From contig NZ_BAAAYN010000023.1 in assembly GCF_039536245.1 (NCBI RefSeq), forward strand, positions 192,875 through 256,874: 64,000 nt of DNA, given 5' to 3'. The notes beneath the pieces are model-generated. The model did no database searches, was not told the origin of the DNA, and saw only the letters and a list, made by a program, of their open reading frames with translations. Of this stretch, positions 36,113 through 49,788 are shown one piece after another (the stretch's first letter is position 1; every line of letters starts with the position of its first letter). The position numbers were made by a program, and so were the translations under genes. Source of the DNA: Cryptosporangium minutisporangium (GTDB lineage: Bacteria > Actinomycetota > Actinomycetes > Mycobacteriales > Cryptosporangiaceae).

Positions 36113-37300
36113 TCAGTGCGTGGACAGCGTTCCGCTGATCTCGTTGGGGATGCCACCGAGGGAGGTGGATCCGACGACCTTGCCGGTGGCGAGGTCGAGC
36201 CGGTGCACCTTCTTCGTCGCCGGCTCGGTCACGTACGCGTCGCCGCCGCGCACGAACAGGGCCGGACGCGGCTGCTGCCAGTCCATCGGCTCCTTCCACT
36301 GGCCGACCACGGGCCACGAGCTCACGATCTTGCCGACGGCCGGGTCGACGACGTGCAGTTTGCCGTCGGTGCCGAGGATCAGTCCCTCACCCTCCGGGCC
36401 ACGCGCCAGCGAGCGGAAGCTGTAACTCACGCCCTTCGGCATCGGCACCACCCGCAACGTGTGGGCCGCGGTGTCGACGAGCGCGAACTGCTCGGGGAAC
36501 TCCCGCTCCGCGTCCGGGTCGACCTTGTAGTCGCCGAGCACGATCGGCGACACCTCGCTGCCGACCTGCGTACCGACGGCGCTGTAGGCCCGGTCGCCCT
36601 TGACCTTGACGAACGTGCCCTTCTTGAACAGCAGCACGCCGTCCTCGCAGCCCAGCGCGACGACCTCGCCCTTCGCGACGGCCTCCCCGTGGACGCCCTC
36701 GCACTCCTCGCTGCGGGCGATCTCCTTGCCCTGTTCGTCCAGGGCGATCGCACCCGGGCGTGACTCGTCCGTGCCGAGGGTGACCACCATCGTGCCGTCG
36801 CTCAGCTCGACGGCTACGCCGTGGTGCGGCTGCGCCGTCTGGTAGGTACGCCCCTCGGGCTTGCCCTTCGCGAGGTCCTTCGGGTCGAAGCTGTTCACAT
36901 CGCCGGTGCCGTCGGTGAACAGGATCGTGCGATCACCGTGCAGCACCACGTGACCGGGCTTGCTGCCCGGGTAGGTGATGTCGGTCATCCGGCCGGTCAC
37001 CGCGTCGAGCACTCGGAACCCGTCCGCGGCTGTCACGACGACGTGGGTGTCGTTGCCGGCCGGGTTCACGCGGTTGAAGCCGTCGAGCTTCACGTCGTGC
37101 GCCACGGCCAGGGATTCGCCGTCGAGCACGTAGATGCCACCGTCGTAGGTGATCGCTACCGGATTCTTCGCCGAAGTGGTGGCGGACGACGCGGAGGGCG
37201 AAGCCGTCCCACCGTCCGCCTCGTTCGCACAGGCGCTGAGCGCCAGTAACGCGGCGGCAGCCAGGGCTACCAGGCCGCGCGTCCCGAGGTGAGTCACCAC
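36113..37300 (-). CDS. aztD: Zinc metallochaperone AztD
   Basis: A 395-residue exported lipoprotein with a beta-propeller that passes zinc to the AztC binding protein. The signal peptide ends in a lipobox LSAC (AALLALSACANEADG). Family stretches include YDGGIYVLDGESLAVAHDVK, GFNRVNPAGNDTHVVVTAAD, PGHVVLHGDRTILFTDGTGD, PHHGVAVELSDGTMVVTLGT and MDWQQPRPALFVRGGDAYVT. ATG/GTG start is at 37300. A strong Zur box at 37318-37332 is 18 bp upstream, so it is expressed when zinc is low. It follows aztC in the same direction across about 73 bp. Confidence 0.92.
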   Translation of the reverse strand: MVTHLGTRGLVALAAAALLALSACANEADGGTASPSASSATTSAKNPVAITYDGGIYVLDGESLAVAHDVKLDGFNRVNPAGNDTHVVVTAADGFRVLDAVTGRMTDITYPGSKPGHVVLHGDRTILFTDGTGDVNSFDPKDLAKGKPEGRTYQTAQPHHGVAVELSDGTMVVTLGTDESRPGAIALDEQGKEIARSEECEGVHGEAVAKGEVVALGCEDGVLLFKKGTFVKVKGDRAYSAVGTQVGSEVSPIVLGDYKVDPDAEREFPEQFALVDTAAHTLRVVPMPKGVSYSFRSLARGPEGEGLILGTDGKLHVVDPAVGKIVSSWPVVGQWKEPMDWQQPRPALFVRGGDAYVTEPATKKVHRLDLATGKVVGSTSLGGIPNEISGTLSTH

Positions 37301-37317
37301 ATCCTCCTAGATGAGTT

Positions 37318-37332
37318 TGACAATCATTTTCA
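37318..37332. promoter_or_regulatory. Zur box upstream of aztD
   Basis: TGACAATCATTTTCA, whose complement is TGAAAATGATTGTCA, is a 7-1-7 dyad matching the actinobacterial Zur consensus (TGAAAATGATTTTCA type) at all but one or two positions. It lies between aztC and aztD, next to the aztD start. Confidence 0.85.
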
Positions 37333-37373
37333 TTCAGAAACGAGCAGGGGTCCGCGACAGCGCAGGCGTGGGA

Positions 37374-38285
37374 TCAGCCGGTGAGGCCGTCGAGAATCGC
37401 GTCGGTGTTGAAGCGCATCATCGCCAGGTAGCTCGCGGCCTCACCGTCCGCCTCGCTGAGCGATTCCGAGTAGAGCGCGATCACGCGCACCGTGACTCTC
37501 GCCGACGATGCGAGCACCTCGGCGAGGCGCGCGGGCTGCGAGGTGTCGGCGAAGATCGCCCGCACCCGGTGGGTCTTGATCGCGGTGGTCAGCGACGCGA
37601 GGTCGGAGGCGCTCGGCGACGCGAGCGTCGTTCCGCTCGGGATGATCGTGCCGACGACCGTCAGGTCGTAGCGGGCGGCGAGGTAGCCGAACACGTGGTG
37701 GTTGGTGACGAGGACCCGGCGGTCCGCCGGTATCCCCGCGAAGCCCGTCGCCAGCTCGCGGCTCAGTTCGCCGAGTTCGACCTGGTACGACTTCGCGCGC
37801 TGCCGGACGACGTCTGCGTCCACACCGTCGACGTGTTCGACGATCTCGTCCGCGAGCAGGCGCACCGCCGTCTGCATACGGATCGGATCGGTCCAGAAGT
37901 GCGGATCGGGTAGTCCGGCGGCGTCGCCGTCCTGGTACTCGATCGGGTCGGCTCGCGCGCCCACCTCGACGGTGGGCACGTCAGCGTCCTTCGCCGCCTC
38001 GACGTGACGGAGCACGCCCTCCTCGAGGCCGAGGCCGTTGTAGACGAGCAGGTCGGCCGTCTGCATGGTGCGGGCCTCGCGGGCGGAGATCGCGAAGGAG
38101 TGCGGGTCGGCGTTGGGTTTCATCAGAACGGTCACGCGGGCCTCGTCGCCGACGATCTCCCGGACGACGTCGCCGAGGATGTTCGTCGTCACGACGATGT
38201 GGGTGCGCGCGGACGGCGTGCAGGCGACGCCGGCGGCCAGCAGGCCGATAGTGGCGACGAGCGCCGTCAGCAGCCGAGGTCTCAT
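37374..38285 (-). CDS. aztC: Zinc ABC transporter substrate-binding protein AztC
   Basis: A 303-residue cluster A-I zinc-binding lipoprotein. The signal peptide leads to a lipobox AGVAC near residue 22. Zinc ligands expected for the family are present: His in KPNADPHSFAIS, His in GLPDPHFWTDP, His in VTNHHVFGYLAARY, and the late Asp in IFADTSQ. ATG 38285 overlaps the stop of the beta-propeller gene (ATGA). It captures zinc for AztB/AztA and receives zinc from AztD in characterised systems. Confidence 0.93.
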   Translation of the reverse strand: MRPRLLTALVATIGLLAAGVACTPSARTHIVVTTNILGDVVREIVGDEARVTVLMKPNADPHSFAISAREARTMQTADLLVYNGLGLEEGVLRHVEAAKDADVPTVEVGARADPIEYQDGDAAGLPDPHFWTDPIRMQTAVRLLADEIVEHVDGVDADVVRQRAKSYQVELGELSRELATGFAGIPADRRVLVTNHHVFGYLAARYDLTVVGTIIPSGTTLASPSASDLASLTTAIKTHRVRAIFADTSQPARLAEVLASSARVTVRVIALYSESLSEADGEAASYLAMMRFNTDAILDGLTG

Positions 38286-39502
38286 CGGCCGACCTCGACA
38301 GCCAGATCGGGTCGTTCGGAAGCCCGAAACGTGCGGGCCGTCCGGAGCCCGTCGCGGTAGTCGATCTCGCGGATGACCCGGGCTTCCGGCTCGGCGACGT
38401 ACGCCCGGTTGATGTCGAGCGTCAGGCTTGCGCCGCTGGGCGAGCCCAGCACGGACGCCGTGGCGAGAGCCTTGCCGGTCGCAACGTCGTAGCTGGTCAA
38501 CGCGCCGGACTCGTCCAGGGCCAGCACGGTGTCGCCGTCCGCCGGTGACGCGGCCGCCACGAGGCGCCGGTCGCCGGCGGGCACGTACCGCACGGTGGCC
38601 TTGGCGGCGTTCACCGACCAGATGCCGGTGCGGTCCGCCACGGCCGCCTCGTTGCTGCGCGGACGGTAGGCCAGTCCGTCGGGCGGGATCGGCGCCTCGG
38701 GAGCTGCCACTGCCGTAGCCGCGAGCCGATCGCCCTGCCGCTTGACGCGGACGACGGTGGTCTCGCACGCGATGACCGCACCGCCGCGCAGAACCGCCCA
38801 TCCGCGCGGCGCCGCGCACGGGACGTCCAGGGCGCCGGTCGGCGTGCCGCGTGCGTCCATCGCGACGATGCGGTTCGCCGGCCGACCCGGATCGTCGCCG
38901 AGGGCAACGAGCAGCGCGTCCGCGTACGGCACGGCCAACGGCGTCGAACTGCGGGTATCGATCGTCGACAGTTCGGCCACGTCGCCCGATTGGAGTTTCC
39001 GGCGATCGAGCACGGTGATTCGTCCGTCGGCCGTGCCGATCGTCGTGTGGGCTTCGGAGCCGGTGATCGTGTCGATCGCGGCGTCGAGCGAGACGACGCC
39101 GACCGATCGGGCCGGCGCGCGGTAGTAGTGGACGTGGTCGGTGTGATCGACCGTCCAGACGCCGGAATCGACGATCTCGAGCCGTCGATCACCGTCGTCG
39201 ACGTAGACGAAGCGGCCGTCCTCGGCGATGCGCTGCGCGCCGAGCGACAGCTCGACGTCCTTCTCCTTCTGCGTGGTCAGGTCCAGCAGCTGCAGCCGCT
39301 CCGAACCGCGGCTCGCGTAGGCGATGGCCGACTGCGGCTCGGGTAACTCCTGTGCGCCTTCGACGTAGCCGTGCGGTGTCTCGTCCGCGCCCCGCGGTGT
39401 GTTCTCCGGTGAGCCGCACGCCGATAACGCCACGACGACGCTCACCGCGGTCCCGAGCAGGCGCCAACGAGCCGGGCGCGTCCTGCGGTTGATCACAGCC
39501 AT
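38282..39502 (-). CDS. Beta-propeller lipoprotein of the zinc operon, unknown role
   Basis: A 406-residue exported protein. A basic start (MAVINRRTRPARWR) leads to a hydrophobic stretch and lipobox VVALSACGSPEN. The rest is repeated beta-blade sequence (ERLQLLDLTTQKEKDVELSL, ITVLDRRKLQSGDVAELSTI, TVLALDESGALTSYDVATGK). A His-rich loop VDHTDHVHYYRAPARS near residue 115 could bind zinc. It resembles AztD in fold but not in its conserved stretches. ATG 39502 overlaps the aztB stop region by ten bases, so it is co-translated with the transporter. A second periplasmic-side zinc chaperone is my inference. Confidence 0.8.
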   Translation of the reverse strand: MAVINRRTRPARWRLLGTAVSVVVALSACGSPENTPRGADETPHGYVEGAQELPEPQSAIAYASRGSERLQLLDLTTQKEKDVELSLGAQRIAEDGRFVYVDDGDRRLEIVDSGVWTVDHTDHVHYYRAPARSVGVVSLDAAIDTITGSEAHTTIGTADGRITVLDRRKLQSGDVAELSTIDTRSSTPLAVPYADALLVALGDDPGRPANRIVAMDARGTPTGALDVPCAAPRGWAVLRGGAVIACETTVVRVKRQGDRLAATAVAAPEAPIPPDGLAYRPRSNEAAVADRTGIWSVNAAKATVRYVPAGDRRLVAAASPADGDTVLALDESGALTSYDVATGKALATASVLGSPSGASLTLDINRAYVAEPEARVIREIDYRDGLRTARTFRASERPDLAVEVGR

Positions 39503-40365
39503 CCTTTCTCGGCAGCGGTGGACGCGACCGTCGACGACCGGGCGCGCAGCACCGCGGACGCGGTCCGGCGCGCGCCGAGGATCACGAAGAAGAGGGACAC
39601 GGCAACGGCGGCGATCGTGGCGCCGGCCGCCGTCGCCGCGAACCAGGAGATCCACAGTCCGAGCACGGTGGCGGCCGAGCCGATCCCGAACGCGGTGAGC
39701 ATGACGATCGGCAGCCGTCGTGCCACCAGCAGCGCCGCCGCCGAGGGCGCGATGAGCATGCCGAAGGCGAGCAGCGTGCCCACGACGCTGAAGGCCACCG
39801 CCATCGTGATCGTGAGCAGGACCAGCATCACCGCGTTCGCGAGATCCGGGCGTAAGCCGAGCGTCCGGGCCTTGCGCGCATCGAACGTCAAGGCCAGGAA
39901 CGGCCGGTAACCGACGAAGGTGACGACCGCGACGACGAGGACGGCCCCACCCAGCAAGAGCAGGTCAGGTGCCCGGATCGCCAGCACGTCACCGAAGAGG
40001 AAGGCCGTCAGGTCGGTCGCGAACGACCGGGAGTGGGACACGACGATGACCCCGACCGAGAGCATCCCGACGAACAGCAGGCCGATGCTGGTGTCCCGCC
40101 CGAACTCGCGGCTGTGCCGTAGGGCGTTGACGCCGATCGCCATGGCGAACGCGCTCGCCGCGGCGCCCACGACCAGGCTGCCGCCCAGGATCGACGCGAT
40201 CGCGACGCCGGGCAGCATGCCGTGGCTCATCGCCTCGCCGAGAAAGGTCATCCCACGGGCGATCACCCAGACCCCGGCGAGCGCGCACACCGCCGCCAAC
40301 AGCACACCGCCCGCCAGCGCGCGGACGACGAACGGAACGGTGAACGGCTCGACCAGGGACGACAT
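39493..40365 (-). CDS. aztB: Zinc ABC transporter permease AztB
   Basis: A 290-residue membrane permease of the ABC-3 (ZnuB/MntB) type with about eight helices. Examples are ALAGGVLLAAVCALAGVWVI, the conserved TFLGEAMSHGMLPGVAIA loop near residue 45, and ARTLGLRPDLANAVMLVLLT. ATG 40365 is 18 bp from a Zur box shared with aztA on the other strand. The operon continues with the beta-propeller and aztC genes. Confidence 0.93.
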   Translation of the reverse strand: MSSLVEPFTVPFVVRALAGGVLLAAVCALAGVWVIARGMTFLGEAMSHGMLPGVAIASILGGSLVVGAAASAFAMAIGVNALRHSREFGRDTSIGLLFVGMLSVGVIVVSHSRSFATDLTAFLFGDVLAIRAPDLLLLGGAVLVVAVVTFVGYRPFLALTFDARKARTLGLRPDLANAVMLVLLTITMAVAFSVVGTLLAFGMLIAPSAAALLVARRLPIVMLTAFGIGSAATVLGLWISWFAATAAGATIAAVAVSLFFVILGARRTASAVLRARSSTVASTAAEKGWL

Positions 40366-40382
40366 CACGCGGCCCACTATAC

Positions 40383-40397
40383 TGAAAACGGTTGTCA
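40383..40397. promoter_or_regulatory. Shared Zur box between aztA and aztB
   Basis: TGAAAACGGTTGTCA is a 7-1-7 dyad close to the Zur consensus. It lies 19 bp from the aztA start and 18 bp from the aztB start, so one dimer pair can repress both divergent units when zinc is plentiful. Confidence 0.8.
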
Positions 40398-40415
40398 TTT
40401 CTAGTTGGAGGTCGC

Positions 40416-41027
40416 ATGGTCGAGGTCGTCACCGTCGAGGGCGTGGGCTTCCGCTACGCCGGCGTCCCCGTCCTGCGCGCGATGAGCCTGGGCGTCGAAT
40501 CCGCGTCCACGCTGGTGGTCGTCGGCGCGAACGGCTCGGGCAAGAGCACGTTCCTGCACCTACTGGCGGGCGTCGAGACACCCACCGAAGGCTGCGTCCA
40601 CCGCCGCGAGGGCGCCCGCGTGGCCCTCCTTCCCCAGCGCACCCAGGGCATCGACGCACTCCCGCTGACGGTCGCGGAATGCGTCGCGATCGGACGCTTC
40701 TCCCCCGGCCGACTGCTGCGACGCCTCGGCCGTACCGATCGCGCGGCCGTGACCGGAATGATGGAGCGGCTGGACCTCGCGCACCTGGCCCGCCGACGGC
40801 TCCGCGAACTGTCCGGCGGGCAGCGGCAGCGCACTCTCATCGCCCAGACGCTCGTCCAGGACGCCGACGTCTACGTCCTCGACGAGCCCACCGCCGCGCT
40901 CGACACCCGCAGCAGGCACCGTGTGCACGAGCTACTCGCCGAACGGAGCCGGGGCGGCGCCGCCGTGGTCCTGGCCAGCCACGACACCGCCGAAGCATCG
41001 TTAGCCGACCACACGCTCCAACTTTGA
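40416..41027 (+). CDS. aztA: Zinc ABC transporter ATP-binding protein AztA
   Basis: A 203-residue ABC ATPase. Walker A is VVVGANGSGKSTFLHLLAGV, signature RELSGGQRQRTLIAQTLVQD, Walker B DVYVLDEPTAALD and the H-loop VLASHDTAEASLAD. ATG 40416 is preceded by GGAGG. It is transcribed divergently from aztB, across a shared Zur box, instead of lying in the aztB operon. It energises zinc import through AztB. Confidence 0.93.
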   Translation: MVEVVTVEGVGFRYAGVPVLRAMSLGVESASTLVVVGANGSGKSTFLHLLAGVETPTEGCVHRREGARVALLPQRTQGIDALPLTVAECVAIGRFSPGRLLRRLGRTDRAAVTGMMERLDLAHLARRRLRELSGGQRQRTLIAQTLVQDADVYVLDEPTAALDTRSRHRVHELLAERSRGGAAVVLASHDTAEASLADHTLQL

Positions 41028-46093: not shown

Positions 46094-46142
46094 CGCGCCA
46101 GCCGTGATGCTCGTCGCCCTCCGTTTTCTCGCGCCGCCCTTG

Positions 46143-46159
46143 ATGCAAGTATCTTGCAA
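46143..46159. promoter_or_regulatory. Nur-box-like inverted repeat upstream of the FecCD operon
   Basis: The dyad TGCAAGTATCTTGCA (46144-46158) gives TGCAA-N5-TTGCA, which fits the Streptomyces Nur consensus tTGCaa-N5-ttGCAA known for nickel regulation. It is 30 bp upstream of the FecCD start. An outer pair, ttgatgc (46140-46146) and gcatcaa (46162-46168), extends it, and gcatcaa is repeated at 46173-46179. Confidence 0.55.
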
Positions 46160-46188
46160 CAGCATCAATTTGGCATCAAGGAGGCGGT

Positions 46189-47292
46189 GTGGGATCCGGG
46201 CTGGTGATCGGAGGCCGTGATCCGGCTGCGCCCGTCGATGCACTCGGCTTGGGGGCCCGGCGCCGTCGCACCGCCCTCTGGCTGGCCGCGCTGATCGTCG
46301 GCCTCGTCGCCACGGTGATCGCCGGTGTCGGGTTCGGTGCGGTCGGCATCAACCCGGCCACCGTCGCCCGGATCATCGGCCACCACCTGGTCGGTTGGCC
46401 CGGCGAGGCGACCTGGGACCTGGCTCAGGACGCGATCGTCTGGGACGTCCGCCTCCCCCGCGTCCTCCTCGGCGCGCTGGTCGGAGCCGGGCTCGCGGTC
46501 TGCGGCGTCGCGCTGCAGGCCATGGTCCGCAACGTGCTCGCCGATCCCTACCTGCTCGGCGTGAACTCCGGCGCGTCCAGCGGTGCCGCCGCGGCGATCC
46601 TGTTCGGCTTCGGCGCGGGCTTCGGTGAGCACGCCCTGCCACTCAGCGCGTTCCTCGGTGCGCTCGCCGCGTCATTCCTGGTGTTCTTCCTCGCCCGCAG
46701 CGGCGGCCGGGTCACGTCGCTGCGGCTGCTGCTGGCCGGTGTCGCGGTCGGCTACGCGCTGTATGCCGCGACCAGCTTCCTGATCTTCGCCTCCGGCTCC
46801 GCCGAAGGCGCCCGGTCGGTGATGTTCTGGCTGCTCGGCTCGCTGGGCCTCGCGCAGTGGGACGCACCCCTCACGGTGGTCGCCGTCGTCATCATGGTGA
46901 CGACTTTCCTGCTGACGATCTGGGGTCGGCAGATGGACTCGCTGGCCATCGGCGACGAAACCGCTCACACCCTCGGCATCTCCCCCGAACGCTTCCGCGT
47001 CCGGCTGCTCGTCCTCGTCGCGCTCACCATCGGCGTCCTCGTCTCAGCCGCCGGCAGCATCGGGTTCGTCGGGCTCGTCGTCCCGCACGTCGCGCGCCGG
47101 CTGGTCGGGGCTACCCACGTGCGGGTCGTGCCGGTCGCCGCGCTGCTCGGGGCGATCCTGCTGATCTGGGCGGACGTCATCGCGCGCGTGCTGTTGGAGC
47201 CGCAGGAGATCCCGATCGGCATCATCACCTCCCTGCTCGGCGCCCCCTTCCTCCTCGTCCTGATCCGCCGTTTCCACGCCACCAGCGCTTAA
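46189..47292 (+). CDS. FecCD-type ABC importer permease
   Basis: A 367-residue BtuC/FecCD permease with about ten helices. Family blocks are visible: LPRVLLGALVGAGLAVCGVA then LQAMVRNVLADPYLLGVNSG, and the cytoplasmic loop IGDETAHTLGISPERFRV with the late VGLVVPHVARRLVGATHVRV. GTG 46189 has AAGGAGG just upstream. Such permeases take siderophores, heme, cobalamin or metal chelates. The Nur-like box upstream suggests nickel or a nickel chelate (inference). A substrate-binding protein, ATPase and methyltransferase follow in one operon. Confidence 0.92.
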   Translation: MGSGLVIGGRDPAAPVDALGLGARRRRTALWLAALIVGLVATVIAGVGFGAVGINPATVARIIGHHLVGWPGEATWDLAQDAIVWDVRLPRVLLGALVGAGLAVCGVALQAMVRNVLADPYLLGVNSGASSGAAAAILFGFGAGFGEHALPLSAFLGALAASFLVFFLARSGGRVTSLRLLLAGVAVGYALYAATSFLIFASGSAEGARSVMFWLLGSLGLAQWDAPLTVVAVVIMVTTFLLTIWGRQMDSLAIGDETAHTLGISPERFRVRLLVLVALTIGVLVSAAGSIGFVGLVVPHVARRLVGATHVRVVPVAALLGAILLIWADVIARVLLEPQEIPIGIITSLLGAPFLLVLIRRFHATSA

Positions 47293-47300
47293 GGACCCTC

Positions 47301-48266
47301 ATGCGCAAACTCCCAGTCGCGCTGACCGCGGCTGCTCTCCTGCTGACCACCGGGTGCGGCGGCGGTAGCGACCCGGGAACGACGTCATCCGACGGCATCT
47401 ACCCGGTCACGATCAACAACTGCGGCACCGACGTGACGTTCGACGCCGAACCCGAACGCGTCGTCATGCTCAAGAGCGCCGCCGTGCCGTTCCTGCACGA
47501 GCTCGGCGTCATGGACCGCGTCACCGCCCGCGCCGGTCAGTACCCGAAGGCGTACTACGACGCGGAGACGATCGCGGAGCTCGACCGGATCCCGCTGCTG
47601 ACCGACAAGACCGACACCAGCGGCCACCTGCAGATCTCCAAGGAAGTGGTGATCGCGCAGGAGCCCGACCTGGTCCTCGGCCAGGTCGACAACCTCTCCC
47701 GCGAGACGCTCTCGGCCGTCGACATCCCGCTGCTCGAGGAGCCCGCGCTCTGCGAGACCACGAAGACCAAGCCGACGTTCGACGACATCTACGAGCAGAC
47801 ACAGAACTACGGCAAGGTCTTCAACAGGTATGACGAGGCTGCGAGCGCCGTGGCAGCTTTGAAGAAACGCACCGAAGCCGCGACCGCGCCGAAGCCCTCC
47901 GGCCGCACCGCCGCCGTGCTCTACCCGACCGTCGGCGGCGGCACCACCTACGCCTACGGCACGCTGAGCATGGCCGACCCGCAGCTGACGGCCGCCGGGT
48001 TCACCAACGTCTTCGGCAACGTCGATGAGCGCGTCTTCGAAGTCACCCGCGAAGAGCTGCTGGGACGCAACCCCGACGTGCTGATCCTGCTCTACAGCGA
48101 CGGCGACCCGAAGGCCGTAGAGCAGGCAATCACCAGCTTGCCGGGCGCCGACCAGCTGAAGGCCGTCCAGAACGGCAACGTCCTGGCCCAGCTGTTCAAC
48201 TTCACCGAGCCGCCCACCCCGCTCTCGATCACCGGCCTGGAGATGATCCGGAAGCGGTTCGGATGA
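47301..48266 (+). CDS. Periplasmic-binding lipoprotein of the FecCD importer
   Basis: A 321-residue cluster A-II binding protein. Signal peptide and lipobox LLLTTGC are at residues 13-20. The mature start (YPVTINNCGTDVTFDAEPER, then VVMLKSAAVPFLHELGV) matches iron-complex and 'F420-0' type binding proteins in actinobacteria, so the ligand cannot be decided from family alone. GEPDLVLGQVD-like and ADQLKAVQNGNVLAQLF parts are typical of the fold. ATG 47301 is nine bases after the permease stop. The ATPase ATG overlaps its stop. Confidence 0.88.
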   Translation: MRKLPVALTAAALLLTTGCGGGSDPGTTSSDGIYPVTINNCGTDVTFDAEPERVVMLKSAAVPFLHELGVMDRVTARAGQYPKAYYDAETIAELDRIPLLTDKTDTSGHLQISKEVVIAQEPDLVLGQVDNLSRETLSAVDIPLLEEPALCETTKTKPTFDDIYEQTQNYGKVFNRYDEAASAVAALKKRTEAATAPKPSGRTAAVLYPTVGGGTTYAYGTLSMADPQLTAAGFTNVFGNVDERVFEVTREELLGRNPDVLILLYSDGDPKAVEQAITSLPGADQLKAVQNGNVLAQLFNFTEPPTPLSITGLEMIRKRFG

Positions 48267-49030
48267 TCACCGCCACCGGCGTCTCCTGGCGCTACGGCTC
48301 CAAGCTGGTCATCGACGGGGTCGACGTGGATGCCACACCTGGCCGGGTACTCGGACTGATCGGGCCGAACGGCAGCGGCAAGACCACGCTTCTTCGGCTG
48401 CTCCACGGCGCGCTGCGCAGCCCCACCGGGAACGTGCGCATCGACGGTGCGGAGCTGGCGACGTTACCGCCTCGGGAGGCCGCCCGCCGGCTGGCCGTCG
48501 TGGTTCAGGAGACCGGCGGCGAGACCTCGCTGACCGTCGGCGAAATGGTGCTCCTCGGCCGCGGGCCGCACCTGTCGACGTTCCAGCGCACCGGACCGGC
48601 GGATCACGCGATCGCCGCCCGCGCGCTGGAACGGGTCGGCGCCAGCCACCTGGGTGCCCGGTCGTTCGCGGAGCTGTCCGGCGGTGAGCGGCAACGGGTG
48701 CTCATCGCCCGCGCGCTGACCCAGGAGGCCACGCACCTGCTGCTCGACGAGCCGACCAATCACCTCGACATCCGCTACCAACACGAGATCCTCCGACTCG
48801 TGCAGGGCCTGGGGACGTGTTCGGTCGTCGTGCTCCATGACCTCAATCTGGCCGCGCGCTACTGCGACGACCTGATCCTGCTCGGCGACGGCGAGGTCGT
48901 GGCGGCCGGCCCGACGAGCGACGTCCTCGACCCGGCCGTCCTGGAACCGGTTTACGGAATCGGCATCCACCGGCTCGAACTCGACGGTGCGATCCACCTG
49001 CTGTTCCACCCGAAGGGAGTCCTCGTATGA
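48263..49030 (+). CDS. FecE/BtuD-type ABC importer ATPase
   Basis: A 255-residue ATPase for the FecCD importer. Walker A is GLIGPNGSGKTTLLRLLHGA, signature FAELSGGERQRVLIARALTQ, Walker B HLLLDEPTNHLDIRYQHEIL, and the H-loop VVLHDLNLAARYCDDLI. ATG 48263 overlaps the binding-protein stop (ATGA), and its own stop overlaps the methyltransferase ATG, so four genes are translated as one unit. Confidence 0.93.
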   Translation: MITATGVSWRYGSKLVIDGVDVDATPGRVLGLIGPNGSGKTTLLRLLHGALRSPTGNVRIDGAELATLPPREAARRLAVVVQETGGETSLTVGEMVLLGRGPHLSTFQRTGPADHAIAARALERVGASHLGARSFAELSGGERQRVLIARALTQEATHLLLDEPTNHLDIRYQHEILRLVQGLGTCSVVVLHDLNLAARYCDDLILLGDGEVVAAGPTSDVLDPAVLEPVYGIGIHRLELDGAIHLLFHPKGVLV

Positions 49031-49788
49031 GCGTCCAGGACCGCATCTCCGACCTGCCCGACCTCGTGAAGCGCTGGGACGCCCAGCAGGCCGCCTACAT
49101 CGCCGGCCGGGAGCAACGTTTCACCGCGATGCTCGACGTCGTCGAGCTCACCGTCGGCGGCGACCGCACGATCGTCGACCTCGGCTGCGGACCTGGATCC
49201 CTGACCCGCCGCCTCCTCGACCGCTTCCCGGACACACGCGTCGTGGCCGTCGACTACGACCCAGTCCTGCTCGCCCTCGCCCGCGCGACCCTCACCGAGT
49301 ACGGGTCCCGGGTCACCGTCCTCGACACCGACCTGCGCGACGCAGGCTGGGCCTCCTTCGCCGGCGAGGTCTCGGCGATGGTCTCCACGACCGCGCTGCA
49401 CTGGCTCGCCCCCGATCAGCTCATCCGGCTCTATGCGCAAATCCGCGACCGGCTCAGCCCCAGCGGGGTACTGCTCGACGGCGACCACTTCCGCTTCGGC
49501 GATCGTGATCCCGCGCTGCGCACGATCGCCGCCGACCACGACGACCTCACTCAGCGGGCTGCGTTCGCCGCGGGTGCCGAGGACTGGGCGAGCTGGTGGG
49601 ACGCCGCATCGGCACATCCGCTGCTGCAGCCGCACGTCGCCGAGCGAGACCGCCGCTACGGGCGGCGCACCTCGACGCCGGAGACCACCGTGGATTTCCG
49701 GCTCGCCGCACTGCGTCAAGCCGGGTTCGGGGCCGTCGGCACGGTCTGGCAACTGCTCGACGACTACGTCGTCTGGGCACAGAAGTAG
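49027..49788 (+). CDS. SAM-dependent methyltransferase coupled to the ABC importer
   Basis: A 253-residue class I methyltransferase. Motif I is TIVDLGCGPGSLTRRLLDRF, motif II VVAVDYDPVLLALARATL, and a post-I Asp loop VTVLDTDLRDAGW follows, with VSTTALHWLAPDQL later. ATG 49027 overlaps the ATPase stop, so it belongs to the importer operon. Its role there is unknown: it might modify an imported chelate or its metallophore. Similar importer-methyltransferase neighbours exist in other actinomycetes (memory only). Confidence 0.88.
   Translation: MSVQDRISDLPDLVKRWDAQQAAYIAGREQRFTAMLDVVELTVGGDRTIVDLGCGPGSLTRRLLDRFPDTRVVAVDYDPVLLALARATLTEYGSRVTVLDTDLRDAGWASFAGEVSAMVSTTALHWLAPDQLIRLYAQIRDRLSPSGVLLDGDHFRFGDRDPALRTIAADHDDLTQRAAFAAGAEDWASWWDAASAHPLLQPHVAERDRRYGRRTSTPETTVDFRLAALRQAGFGAVGTVWQLLDDYVVWAQK

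Follow-up and report, generated by a model that had tools for sequence, protein, structure and literature searches.

An operon that joins a FecCD-type ABC importer to a methyltransferase behind a Nur-like palindrome raises the question of which metal it imports and what part the enzyme plays in the import. Accounts of nickel uptake in actinobacteria usually centre on NikABCDE and on NiCoT or ECF-type permeases. The operon lies in the window, the whole 64,000-nucleotide stretch of Cryptosporangium minutisporangium DNA that was analysed. Its first gene encodes a FecCD-type ABC permease of 367 aa (46189–47292, + strand; PF01032, 301 bits), starting with the GTG codon at 46189 behind a ribosome-binding site, AAGGAGG, read directly at 46178–46184 (+). 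It is followed by the genes for a substrate-binding lipoprotein of the Peripla_BP_2 type (321 aa; 47301–48266, +; PF01497, 75 bits; ATG start at 47301; lipobox LTTGC, judged by eye), an ABC ATPase (255 aa; 48263–49030, +; PF00005, 106 bits) and a class I SAM methyltransferase (253 aa; 49027–49788, +; PF13649 (Methyltransf_25), 61 bits). The spacings are +8, −4 and −4, the ATPase gene overlapping the lipoprotein gene and the methyltransferase gene overlapping the ATPase gene by 4 nt each, in agreement with the first-pass annotation of this DNA, which had described the four genes as overlapping or nearly touching. The solved chain nearest to the lipoprotein is 5CR9 (357 bits), and orthologues of the lipoprotein were found in 29 of 393 sampled genomes of the class, own genome counted.

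The putative Nur box (TGCAAGTATCTTGCA; 46144–46158, no strand assigned) forms a perfect 6-3-6 palindrome (TGCAAG-TAT-CTTGCA); with its flanks it reads aTGCAA-GTATC-TTGCAA. It ends 30 bp before the permease start codon. TGCAA-N5-TTGCA occurs only once in the window, and none of 100 dinucleotide shuffles contained it. Compared with the published consensus, tTGCaa-N5-ttGCAA (in the available part of PMC3919588), the box has one mismatch, at the first base; this met our membership test for a Nur box and upheld the earlier claim of a Nur-like sequence ahead of the operon. An outer inverted repeat, TTGATGC ... GCATCAA (46140–46168, no strand assigned), surrounds the box, and none was seen at the G002 and G003 boxes. 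A further GCATCAA copy lies beyond it at 46173–46179.

The 9.23-Mb genome contains only two sites within two mismatches of the window 15-mer. For TTGCAA-N5-TTGCAA, again with up to two mismatches, 15 sites were found, compared with 51 for the reversed control pattern; as this looser motif is rarer than its control, the motif alone proves little at that looseness. Four of the 15 sites carry one mismatch. One is located 52 bp upstream of a CbiMNQO-type nickel/cobalt importer operon, in which CbiQ and CbiO scored above and CbiM and CbiN below the profile cut-offs. Another stands ahead of an MFS gene whose substrate is unknown and which has a tetR-like gene as neighbour; the fourth is flanked by an HTH gene and a LiaG-like gene, without any connection to nickel. 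The MFS gene was rejected as a conserved co-regulated exporter, its G002 orthologue having no box and no match being found in G001 or G003 (E 1e-50). The own nur and Ni-SOD loci (L076, L151) have no Nur-box site with fewer than four mismatches.

The box was found to be kept at orthologous operons. Sites with up to two mismatches to the consensus stand upstream of 9 of 31 operons, with none elsewhere in these loci (507,469 bases); at up to three mismatches, 17 of the 31 have an upstream site, against eight sites elsewhere, with 0.13 expected. The relaxed pattern TGCRA-N5-TYGCA, which was picked after the sequences had been inspected, is present upstream of 21 of the 31 and once elsewhere in the loci, many of which are congeneric. 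It has 7, 4, 1 and 8 sites in genomes G000 (own) to G003, and its reversed control has more (21, 22, 25 and 17). The strict TGCAA-N5-TTGCA is upstream in four of the 31 loci (the window, L068, L069 and L118), many relatives carry TGCGAC-N3-GTCGCA, which is off the strict consensus, L143 and L144 have weak boxes only, and no convincing box was seen upstream of the operon in L125 and L128. The loci first retrieved via the methyltransferase (L026–L052) lack the strict form; a single N6 variant lies in L028 at 11626, not upstream of a transporter. This absence at first counted against Nur, a view reversed by turning to orthologues of the importer itself.

Genes of known Nur target kinds share the box. 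In sister species G003, the box is located between a divergent Fe/Mn-SOD gene (L068, 6663–6076, −) and the orthologous operon, and in G001 the identical 15-mer separates an Fe/Mn-SOD gene (L071, 8626–8051, −) from a NicT nickel permease gene (549 bits; cut-off, 450). In G030 and G017, from other families of the order, the sole site with at most one mismatch is just upstream of an SOD gene, joined in G030 by a divergent Fur-like gene. The membership test on target kinds was met by the Fe/Mn-SOD genes of these four genomes, by NicT in G001 and by the CbiMNQO-type importer of the own genome. Moreover, the own genome encodes Ni-SOD and Nur, the latter identified by its best PDB match (3EYY, 143 bits; next, 68) and an adjoining ygfZ gene, which met the membership test for Nur. 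The box kept at orthologous operons, its sharing with Fe/Mn-SOD and NicT, the CbiMNQO-type box and the Nur gene strongly support a predicted control of the operon by Nur, although the support is comparative and includes no expression or binding data; the first-pass reading of the box as a site for the nickel regulator thus stands. The site might instead belong to another palindrome binder (MarR, TetR or another Fur paralogue), as the own genome has six Fur-family genes, the box also precedes the MFS gene beside the tetR-like gene, and its form in many relatives has moved away from the strict consensus. We regard this as very unlikely, given the match to the published consensus, the placement at Fe/Mn-SOD, NicT and CbiMNQO-type genes, and the Fur-family genes nearest to the own Nur, which lie next to the operon in 4 of 28 loci, with one further, ambiguous case.

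According to the available parts of two reports, the Nur regulon of Streptomyces coelicolor includes nikABCDE, sodF and sodN (PMC3919588, PMC7055735). The present case resembles it in the box consensus, the Nur orthologue by ygfZ, the Fe/Mn-SOD box of the sister species and the own-genome Ni-SOD; it differs in that no sod gene stands at the window box and that the importer is of the FecCD/Peripla_BP_2 type with a methyltransferase. Indeed, the NikABCDE hallmarks SBP_bac_5 and BPD_transp were not met by the operon. NiuBDE subunits are of the FecCD/Peripla_BP_2 type, and the operon has the corresponding architecture of FecCD permease, Peripla_BP_2 protein and ABC ATPase. In Helicobacter pylori, NiuBDE imports nickel as an ABC system distinct from NikABCDE (PMC5140060, available part); phylum and regulator differ from ours, and the available passages on NiuBDE mention no methyltransferase. 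Based on Nur control, the SOD, NicT and CbiMNQO companions, the Nur and Ni-SOD genes, and the urease genes that flank three of 28 loci (L142–L144), the operon most likely encodes a FecCD-type importer of nickel or a nickel chelate, unlike NikABCDE. The first-pass annotation had reached the same view, which follows from Nur control; metal and chelate form remain inferred, without transport data. Ni-SOD is missing in 16 of the 31 operon genomes, including all 12 of family f32.

Models of the F420-0 transporter (TIGR03868/03869/03873) scored below their curated cut-offs (106.6 < 392.4, 290.3 < 437.35 and 278.6 < 372.4 bits); the recurrence of the methyltransferase family beside metal importers gives FecCD sets that resemble the predicted F420-0 transporters, below cut-off, a competing function in metal import, which is itself inferred. 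The operon has no Zur box, as the window's only two sites (37318 and 40383) both fall in the azt region, and no match to an IdeR/DmdR iron-box consensus with up to three mismatches. The window contains no cobalamin riboswitch, a feature common but not universal for BtuFCD. Neither iron nor cobalamin control, either of which would refute the nickel reading according to the first-pass annotation, was apparent at the operon.

A substrate of another kind, a corrinoid or cobalt complex with Nur control being secondary, would suit the methyltransferase, whose nearest relatives outside the genus belong to cobalamin-riboswitch operons (L026, L027, L028 and L030) and whose G002 orthologue sits behind a cobalamin riboswitch (L069). 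It would also suit the riboswitch-led FecCD set that diverges from the Nur-type operon in G190 (L117) and the matches of BtuC models to the permease, though these are below cut-off (225.8 < 334 and 237.9 < 461 bits), as is BtuD (117.8 < 281 bits). However, the window permease (89–90% identical to its G002 and G003 counterparts), lipoprotein and ATPase are orthologues of the Nur-box set, at 83–90% to these genomes, whereas the permease and ATPase of the separate G002 riboswitch operon are only 46–47% identical to the window's, and no riboswitch precedes the operon itself in the 16 scanned of 28 Nur-type loci. As to B12, in L026 and L028 a cobN operon stands next to the riboswitch operon, which therefore seems to serve the import of cobalt and not of B12. 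We therefore consider this substrate improbable and retain nickel. Cobalamin control applies to the methyltransferase's close relatives elsewhere, probably for cobalt.

The methyltransferase has an intact SAM motif (DLGCGPGS) and the intact family hallmarks WDxQQ, TALHW and GDH, as seen in an alignment of 38 members. Its predicted model (pLDDT 93.1) is nearest to the solved fold 9fcq (Z 27.0, rmsd 2.2 over 207 residues, 23% identity); the search covered solved structures only, and a common fold is no proof of function. The O-methyltransferases BelI and CysG, with which it shares this nearest fold, form esters at the C1 carboxylate of malate-type substrates and need a His-His-Asp metal site (PMC11408123, available part). 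The window protein differs in lacking this motif: H125 aligns with the first His and W126 replaces the second, a pair invariant in 38 of 38 family members, while the third (Asp) place aligns weakly (2.2 bits) and shows no conserved Asp.

This enzyme or a second methyltransferase, MT', is present at 22 of the 28 other operons, and six have neither; no homologue of the former was found in G001. MT' is kept in G002 and G003, and its start there matches the first seven codons of the window gene, MSVQDRI (49027–49047, +), a putative deletion scar, so the window gene appears to have been moved next to the importer by a deletion, in an in-frame fusion with the MT' start. In the methyltransferase tree, the copies at Nur-box operons form three separate groups, requiring at least three gains or losses; as these may be either, three independent recruitments are not shown. 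The 22/28 linkage and the separate groups support the enzyme as belonging to the importer system, as the first-pass annotation had proposed.

The family also recurs at other metal loci. Zur-like boxes with up to three mismatches occur in 11 of 14 type (ii) family loci without a riboswitch (L034, L036 and L041 are weaker); they overlap the start codon, and protein-level constraint could account for part of the likeness. An analogous case from Mycobacterium smegmatis is MSMEG_6055, a laboratory-measured, Zur-dependent class I methyltransferase near metal ABC genes (PMC7174638, available part); its metal control is by Zur and zinc. Once, a family member lies beside an SBP_bac_5/BPD_transp importer. 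An enzyme carried along as a passenger with no transport role would explain its apparent arrival by deletion and the six operons with neither methyltransferase, but is unlikely in view of the in-frame fusion with intact catalytic motifs, the repeated changes on the tree, and the family's recurrence beside importers that carry Zur-like boxes or riboswitches and, once, beside one of the SBP_bac_5/BPD_transp type.

In G017, a homologue (41–44% identical) ends a PBP-permease-ATPase-MT run; a same-strand gene for the opine dehydrogenase CntM lies about 1.3 kb ahead of the run. Actinomycete opine-zincophore clusters likewise combine a FecCD importer with a PF13649 methyltransferase, for which tailoring is suggested (PMC7438024, available part). 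The window enzyme could accordingly tailor a self-made metallophore before export, with the box-bearing MFS gene as a possible exporter, instead of acting on an imported complex. We think this rather unlikely: CntM (PF10100), the sole metallophore pathway sought, has no match in the own genome and turned up in only one of the 31 genomes searched, the window methyltransferase gene is tied to the importer and not to biosynthesis genes, and the MFS box is not conserved. Control of the Nur type, not by zinc, further distinguishes the operon from those clusters.

The box, its conservation and companions, the Nur and Ni-SOD genes, the operon anatomy and the methyltransferase linkage are computed observations. 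From them we infer that this is probably a Nur-repressed, high-affinity nickel import operon with a methyltransferase, in which nickel, chelate form and methylation are themselves inferred. At high cell nickel, Ni-Nur would sit on the box and block transcription; when nickel is short, Nur would leave the box, and permease, lipoprotein and ATPase would be made. The lipoprotein would then bind Ni(II), most likely in complex with a small organic ligand; the complex would enter the cell through the BtuCD-type transporter and supply Ni-SOD among others. The methyltransferase would most likely methylate the ligand (a carboxylate is our first guess), weakening metal binding and freeing nickel; methylation of the ligand and its purpose are tentative, and we would not rely on them. 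Such an importer would open a further path for nickel uptake and suggests that chelated nickel serves as a nutrient.

Recurrence of the methyltransferase beside likely zinc and cobalt importers suggests shared handling of a metal-carrying molecule, and the family beside nickel-, zinc- and cobalt-switched importers offers a testable case for methylation in metal release. It is possible, though doubtful, that one family (WDxQQ...TALHW...GDH) processes the ligand for chelate importers of nickel, zinc and cobalt alike, its copies being switched by Nur, Zur and the cobalamin riboswitch, respectively, and that it releases the metal through methylation of a ligand group in one metallophore class common to all three. 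If true, metal would be freed here by methylation, whereas siderophores give up theirs through reduction or hydrolysis. Homologues in Thermoplasmata (L040, L043, L045–L048) were set aside as importer partners for want of a FecCD match; in L047, ABC ATPase matches lie 5–8 kb from the methyltransferase homologue.

The palindrome TGCAA-N5-TTGCA occurs once in the window, as TGCAAGTATCTTGCA at 46144–46158, and in 0 of 100 shuffled sequences. With flanking bases added, the sequence becomes ATGCAA-GTATC-TTGCAA, which differs at a single position from the Nur consensus tTGCaa-N5-ttGCAA given in PMC3919588. The first-pass annotation had placed a Nur-like box 30 bp ahead of a FecCD–methyltransferase operon, and this arrangement was confirmed: the GTG codon of the FecCD permease gene lies 30 bp downstream of the box end and is followed by the lipoprotein, ATPase and methyltransferase genes (gaps of +8, −4 and −4). 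We consider it likely that this is a Nur-repressed nickel import operon, nickel as the metal being inferred; our confidence rose slightly with a box at a CbiMNQO-type operon, urease neighbours and a footprint test using the published consensus. Nur control and nickel import are themselves known, and with NiuBDE a nickel ABC importer distinct from NikABCDE is already on record (PMC5140060). A search of the open-access literature for Nur, nickel and FecCD revealed no Nur-controlled FecCD importer announced in titles or abstract openings, and no paper was found there for 'Nur regulon' with nickel.

Further boxes were sought in the 9.23 Mb of the window's own genome (G000). With up to two mismatches, the 15-mer gave two sites, one at the window operon and one upstream of an MFS gene. 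The latter, a second exact copy (L001 1501–1515; G000:C19:17535–17549), is located between a tetR-like gene and the MFS gene, whose substrate is unknown, and is not kept at the orthologue in G002, a genome of the same genus. The 17-bp consensus with at most one mismatch gave four sites, among them those at the window operon and at the MFS gene. A third lies 52 bp upstream of a CbiMNQO-type nickel/cobalt transporter operon (L080 4132–6908, G000:C14), which is probably a second Nur target; CbiQ and CbiO exceeded their cut-offs (129.8 over 111.8 and 218.9 over 211.8), and CbiM and CbiN fell below theirs. The remaining one-mismatch site separates an HTH gene from a LiaG-like gene. G000 has six Fur-family genes, and the product of one matches Streptomyces coelicolor Nur (3EYY) with 143 bits, versus 68 for the next entry. 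This gene adjoins ygfZ (TIGR03317, 91 bits, cut-off 49), the same neighbourhood as is described for S. coelicolor nur in PMC4531530. Ni-SOD is also encoded in G000.

The classical Nur targets are Fe-SOD and nickel transport, according to PMC7055735 and PMC3919588. In G003, of the same genus, the site TGCAAGTAGCTTGCA separates the orthologous operon from a divergent Fe/Mn-SOD gene, a label used because the models do not separate Fe- from Mn-SOD here; in the congeneric G001, the 15-mer of the window recurs with an Fe/Mn-SOD gene on one side and a gene for the nickel permease NicT (549 bits, cut-off 450) on the other. G030 and G017 belong to other families of the order; in each, the sole site with at most one mismatch precedes a SOD gene, and a Fur-like gene diverges from the G030 site.

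Lipoprotein orthologues (E 1e-50) were found in 29 of 393 genomes of the class, G000 included. Flanks were fetched for the other 28 loci, all of which hold permease, lipoprotein and ATPase together; at least one of two class I methyltransferases was present at 22, that of the window (MT) at 7 and a second one (MT′) at 21. With the window, G002 and G003, 31 loci were compared. The published consensus with at most two mismatches was found no more than 260 bp ahead of the first gene in nine loci and nowhere else in their 507,469 bases; with at most three, it was upstream in 17 loci versus eight sites elsewhere, 0.13 being expected. A relaxed pattern, TGCRA-N5-TYGCA, set only after inspection of the upstream sequences, occurs upstream in 21 loci from six families and at one site elsewhere, and strict TGCAA-N5-TTGCA in four. 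Among the 10 loci without the relaxed pattern, six have near matches (L117, L119, L136, L138, L139, L141), L125, L143 and L144 weak ones, and L128 none upstream. Genome-wide, the relaxed pattern has one site in G002, at the orthologous operon, and 7, 4 and 8 in G000, G001 and G003; a reversed control pattern was commoner (25, 21, 22 and 17, respectively). At L126 (6797–6811, oriented), the box is nested in a longer palindrome, CATATGCGACGATGTCGCATATG, which sets it apart from its neighbours.

A Fur-family gene stands beside the operon at five of the 28 loci. Among the six Fur proteins of G000, Nur was the best match in four loci, and L142 was ambiguous; the closest solved relative is 3EYY for L141 (82 bits versus 75), and 3EYY ranks second for L142. 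Ni-SOD was found in 18 of 34 genomes searched, 15 of the 31 operon genomes having it and 16 lacking it, including all 12 operon genomes of family f32. Three of these 16 carry urease genes within the fetched 8 kb flanks (L142, L143, L144), and at L143 a Fur-family gene separates the importer from the urease genes.

A tree built from 38 MTs requires the Nur label to have been gained or lost three times or more on well-supported branches; in it, the window and G003 MTs group with those of riboswitch operons (5-row set, 99/97). The gene order is box–permease–lipoprotein–ATPase–MT′ followed by riboswitch–lipoprotein–MT–permease–ATPase in G002, box–permease–lipoprotein–ATPase–MT′–MT in G003, and box–permease–lipoprotein–ATPase–MT in the window, where the first seven codons of MT′ (MSVQDRI) head MT in an in-frame fusion. 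The simplest reading is that two deletions put MT under the Nur box, one methyltransferase being retained each time.

The predicted MT model (pLDDT 93) is closest among solved folds to CysG and BelI (Z 26.4–27.0 over 204–207 residues). According to PMC11408123, these two enzymes transfer the methyl group to the C1 carboxylate of acids of the malate type and bind calcium by His-His-Asp. In MT, the first His is kept (H125, 38/38), the second is Trp (38/38), and no conserved Asp is found at the third place, where the alignment is too weak to judge further. Judged by sequence, MT is outside this metal-dependent group; its chemistry may be similar. The top NCBIfam match, far under cut-off (52.5 versus 320 bits), is trans-aconitate methyltransferase, by its name another carboxylate methylase. 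From this match and the fold we infer, as a tentative first guess, that MT methylates a carboxylate on the metal ligand. Lipoprotein residues D105, H109, E115, Y217, Y219, R244 and E247 are invariant (31/31 rows) and do not reveal the ligand.

A search with MT led to 27 loci; 19 of them are actinobacterial, and 16 of these 19 have a FecCD set beside MT. MT homologues of Thermoplasmata archaea (L040, L043, L045–L048) have no adjoining FecCD genes. At L084 (5654–11541), a homologue is flanked by SBP_bac_5 and BPD_transp genes in a run led by a weak cobalamin riboswitch (38.5 bits), so the linkage is not restricted to FecCD importers. Two further modes of control, cobalamin riboswitches and Zur-like boxes, were observed besides the Nur box. 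Riboswitches precede importer sets at L026, L027, L028, L030 and in G002 (L069), and a neighbouring transporter in G017 (L082). The operons at L026 and L028 have as neighbour a cobN gene (1300 and 1302 bits) that follows a second riboswitch; this points to cobalt as the imported metal. In G002 (L069 4713–4893) a nickel importer and a probable cobalt importer are neighbours, as in G190, where a riboswitch-led FecCD set without MT diverges from the Nur-type operon (L117 3690–6657). L068 has another AdoCbl riboswitch outside the operon, close to a TP_methylase gene.

A Zur-like box (at most three mismatches) is found at the lipoprotein start, each time as the best site of its locus, in 11 of 14 riboswitch-free loci whose PBP–MT–permease–ATPase sets are unlike the window's importer. 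As a control, the Zur pattern gave two window sites, and the region that holds them is that of AztABCD-like zinc import genes (36113–41027), where AztA (232 bits) and AztB (340 bits) exceed their cut-offs and AztD is weak. One site, at 40383, separates AztB from AztA; the other, at 37318, precedes a lipoprotein gene. The window operon sits in a metal island that also holds a DyP-type peroxidase, CopC and a PepSY_TM protein. A second methyltransferase–FecCD set of G000 (L072 8673–12143, G000:C29), in which the MT is 50% identical and a Zur-like box overlaps the start of the lipoprotein gene, is probably a zinc version of the system. In G017, an opine dehydrogenase gene (652 bits) is 4.4 kb away from MT, an arrangement that matches the FecCD-plus-methyltransferase clusters in PMC7438024.
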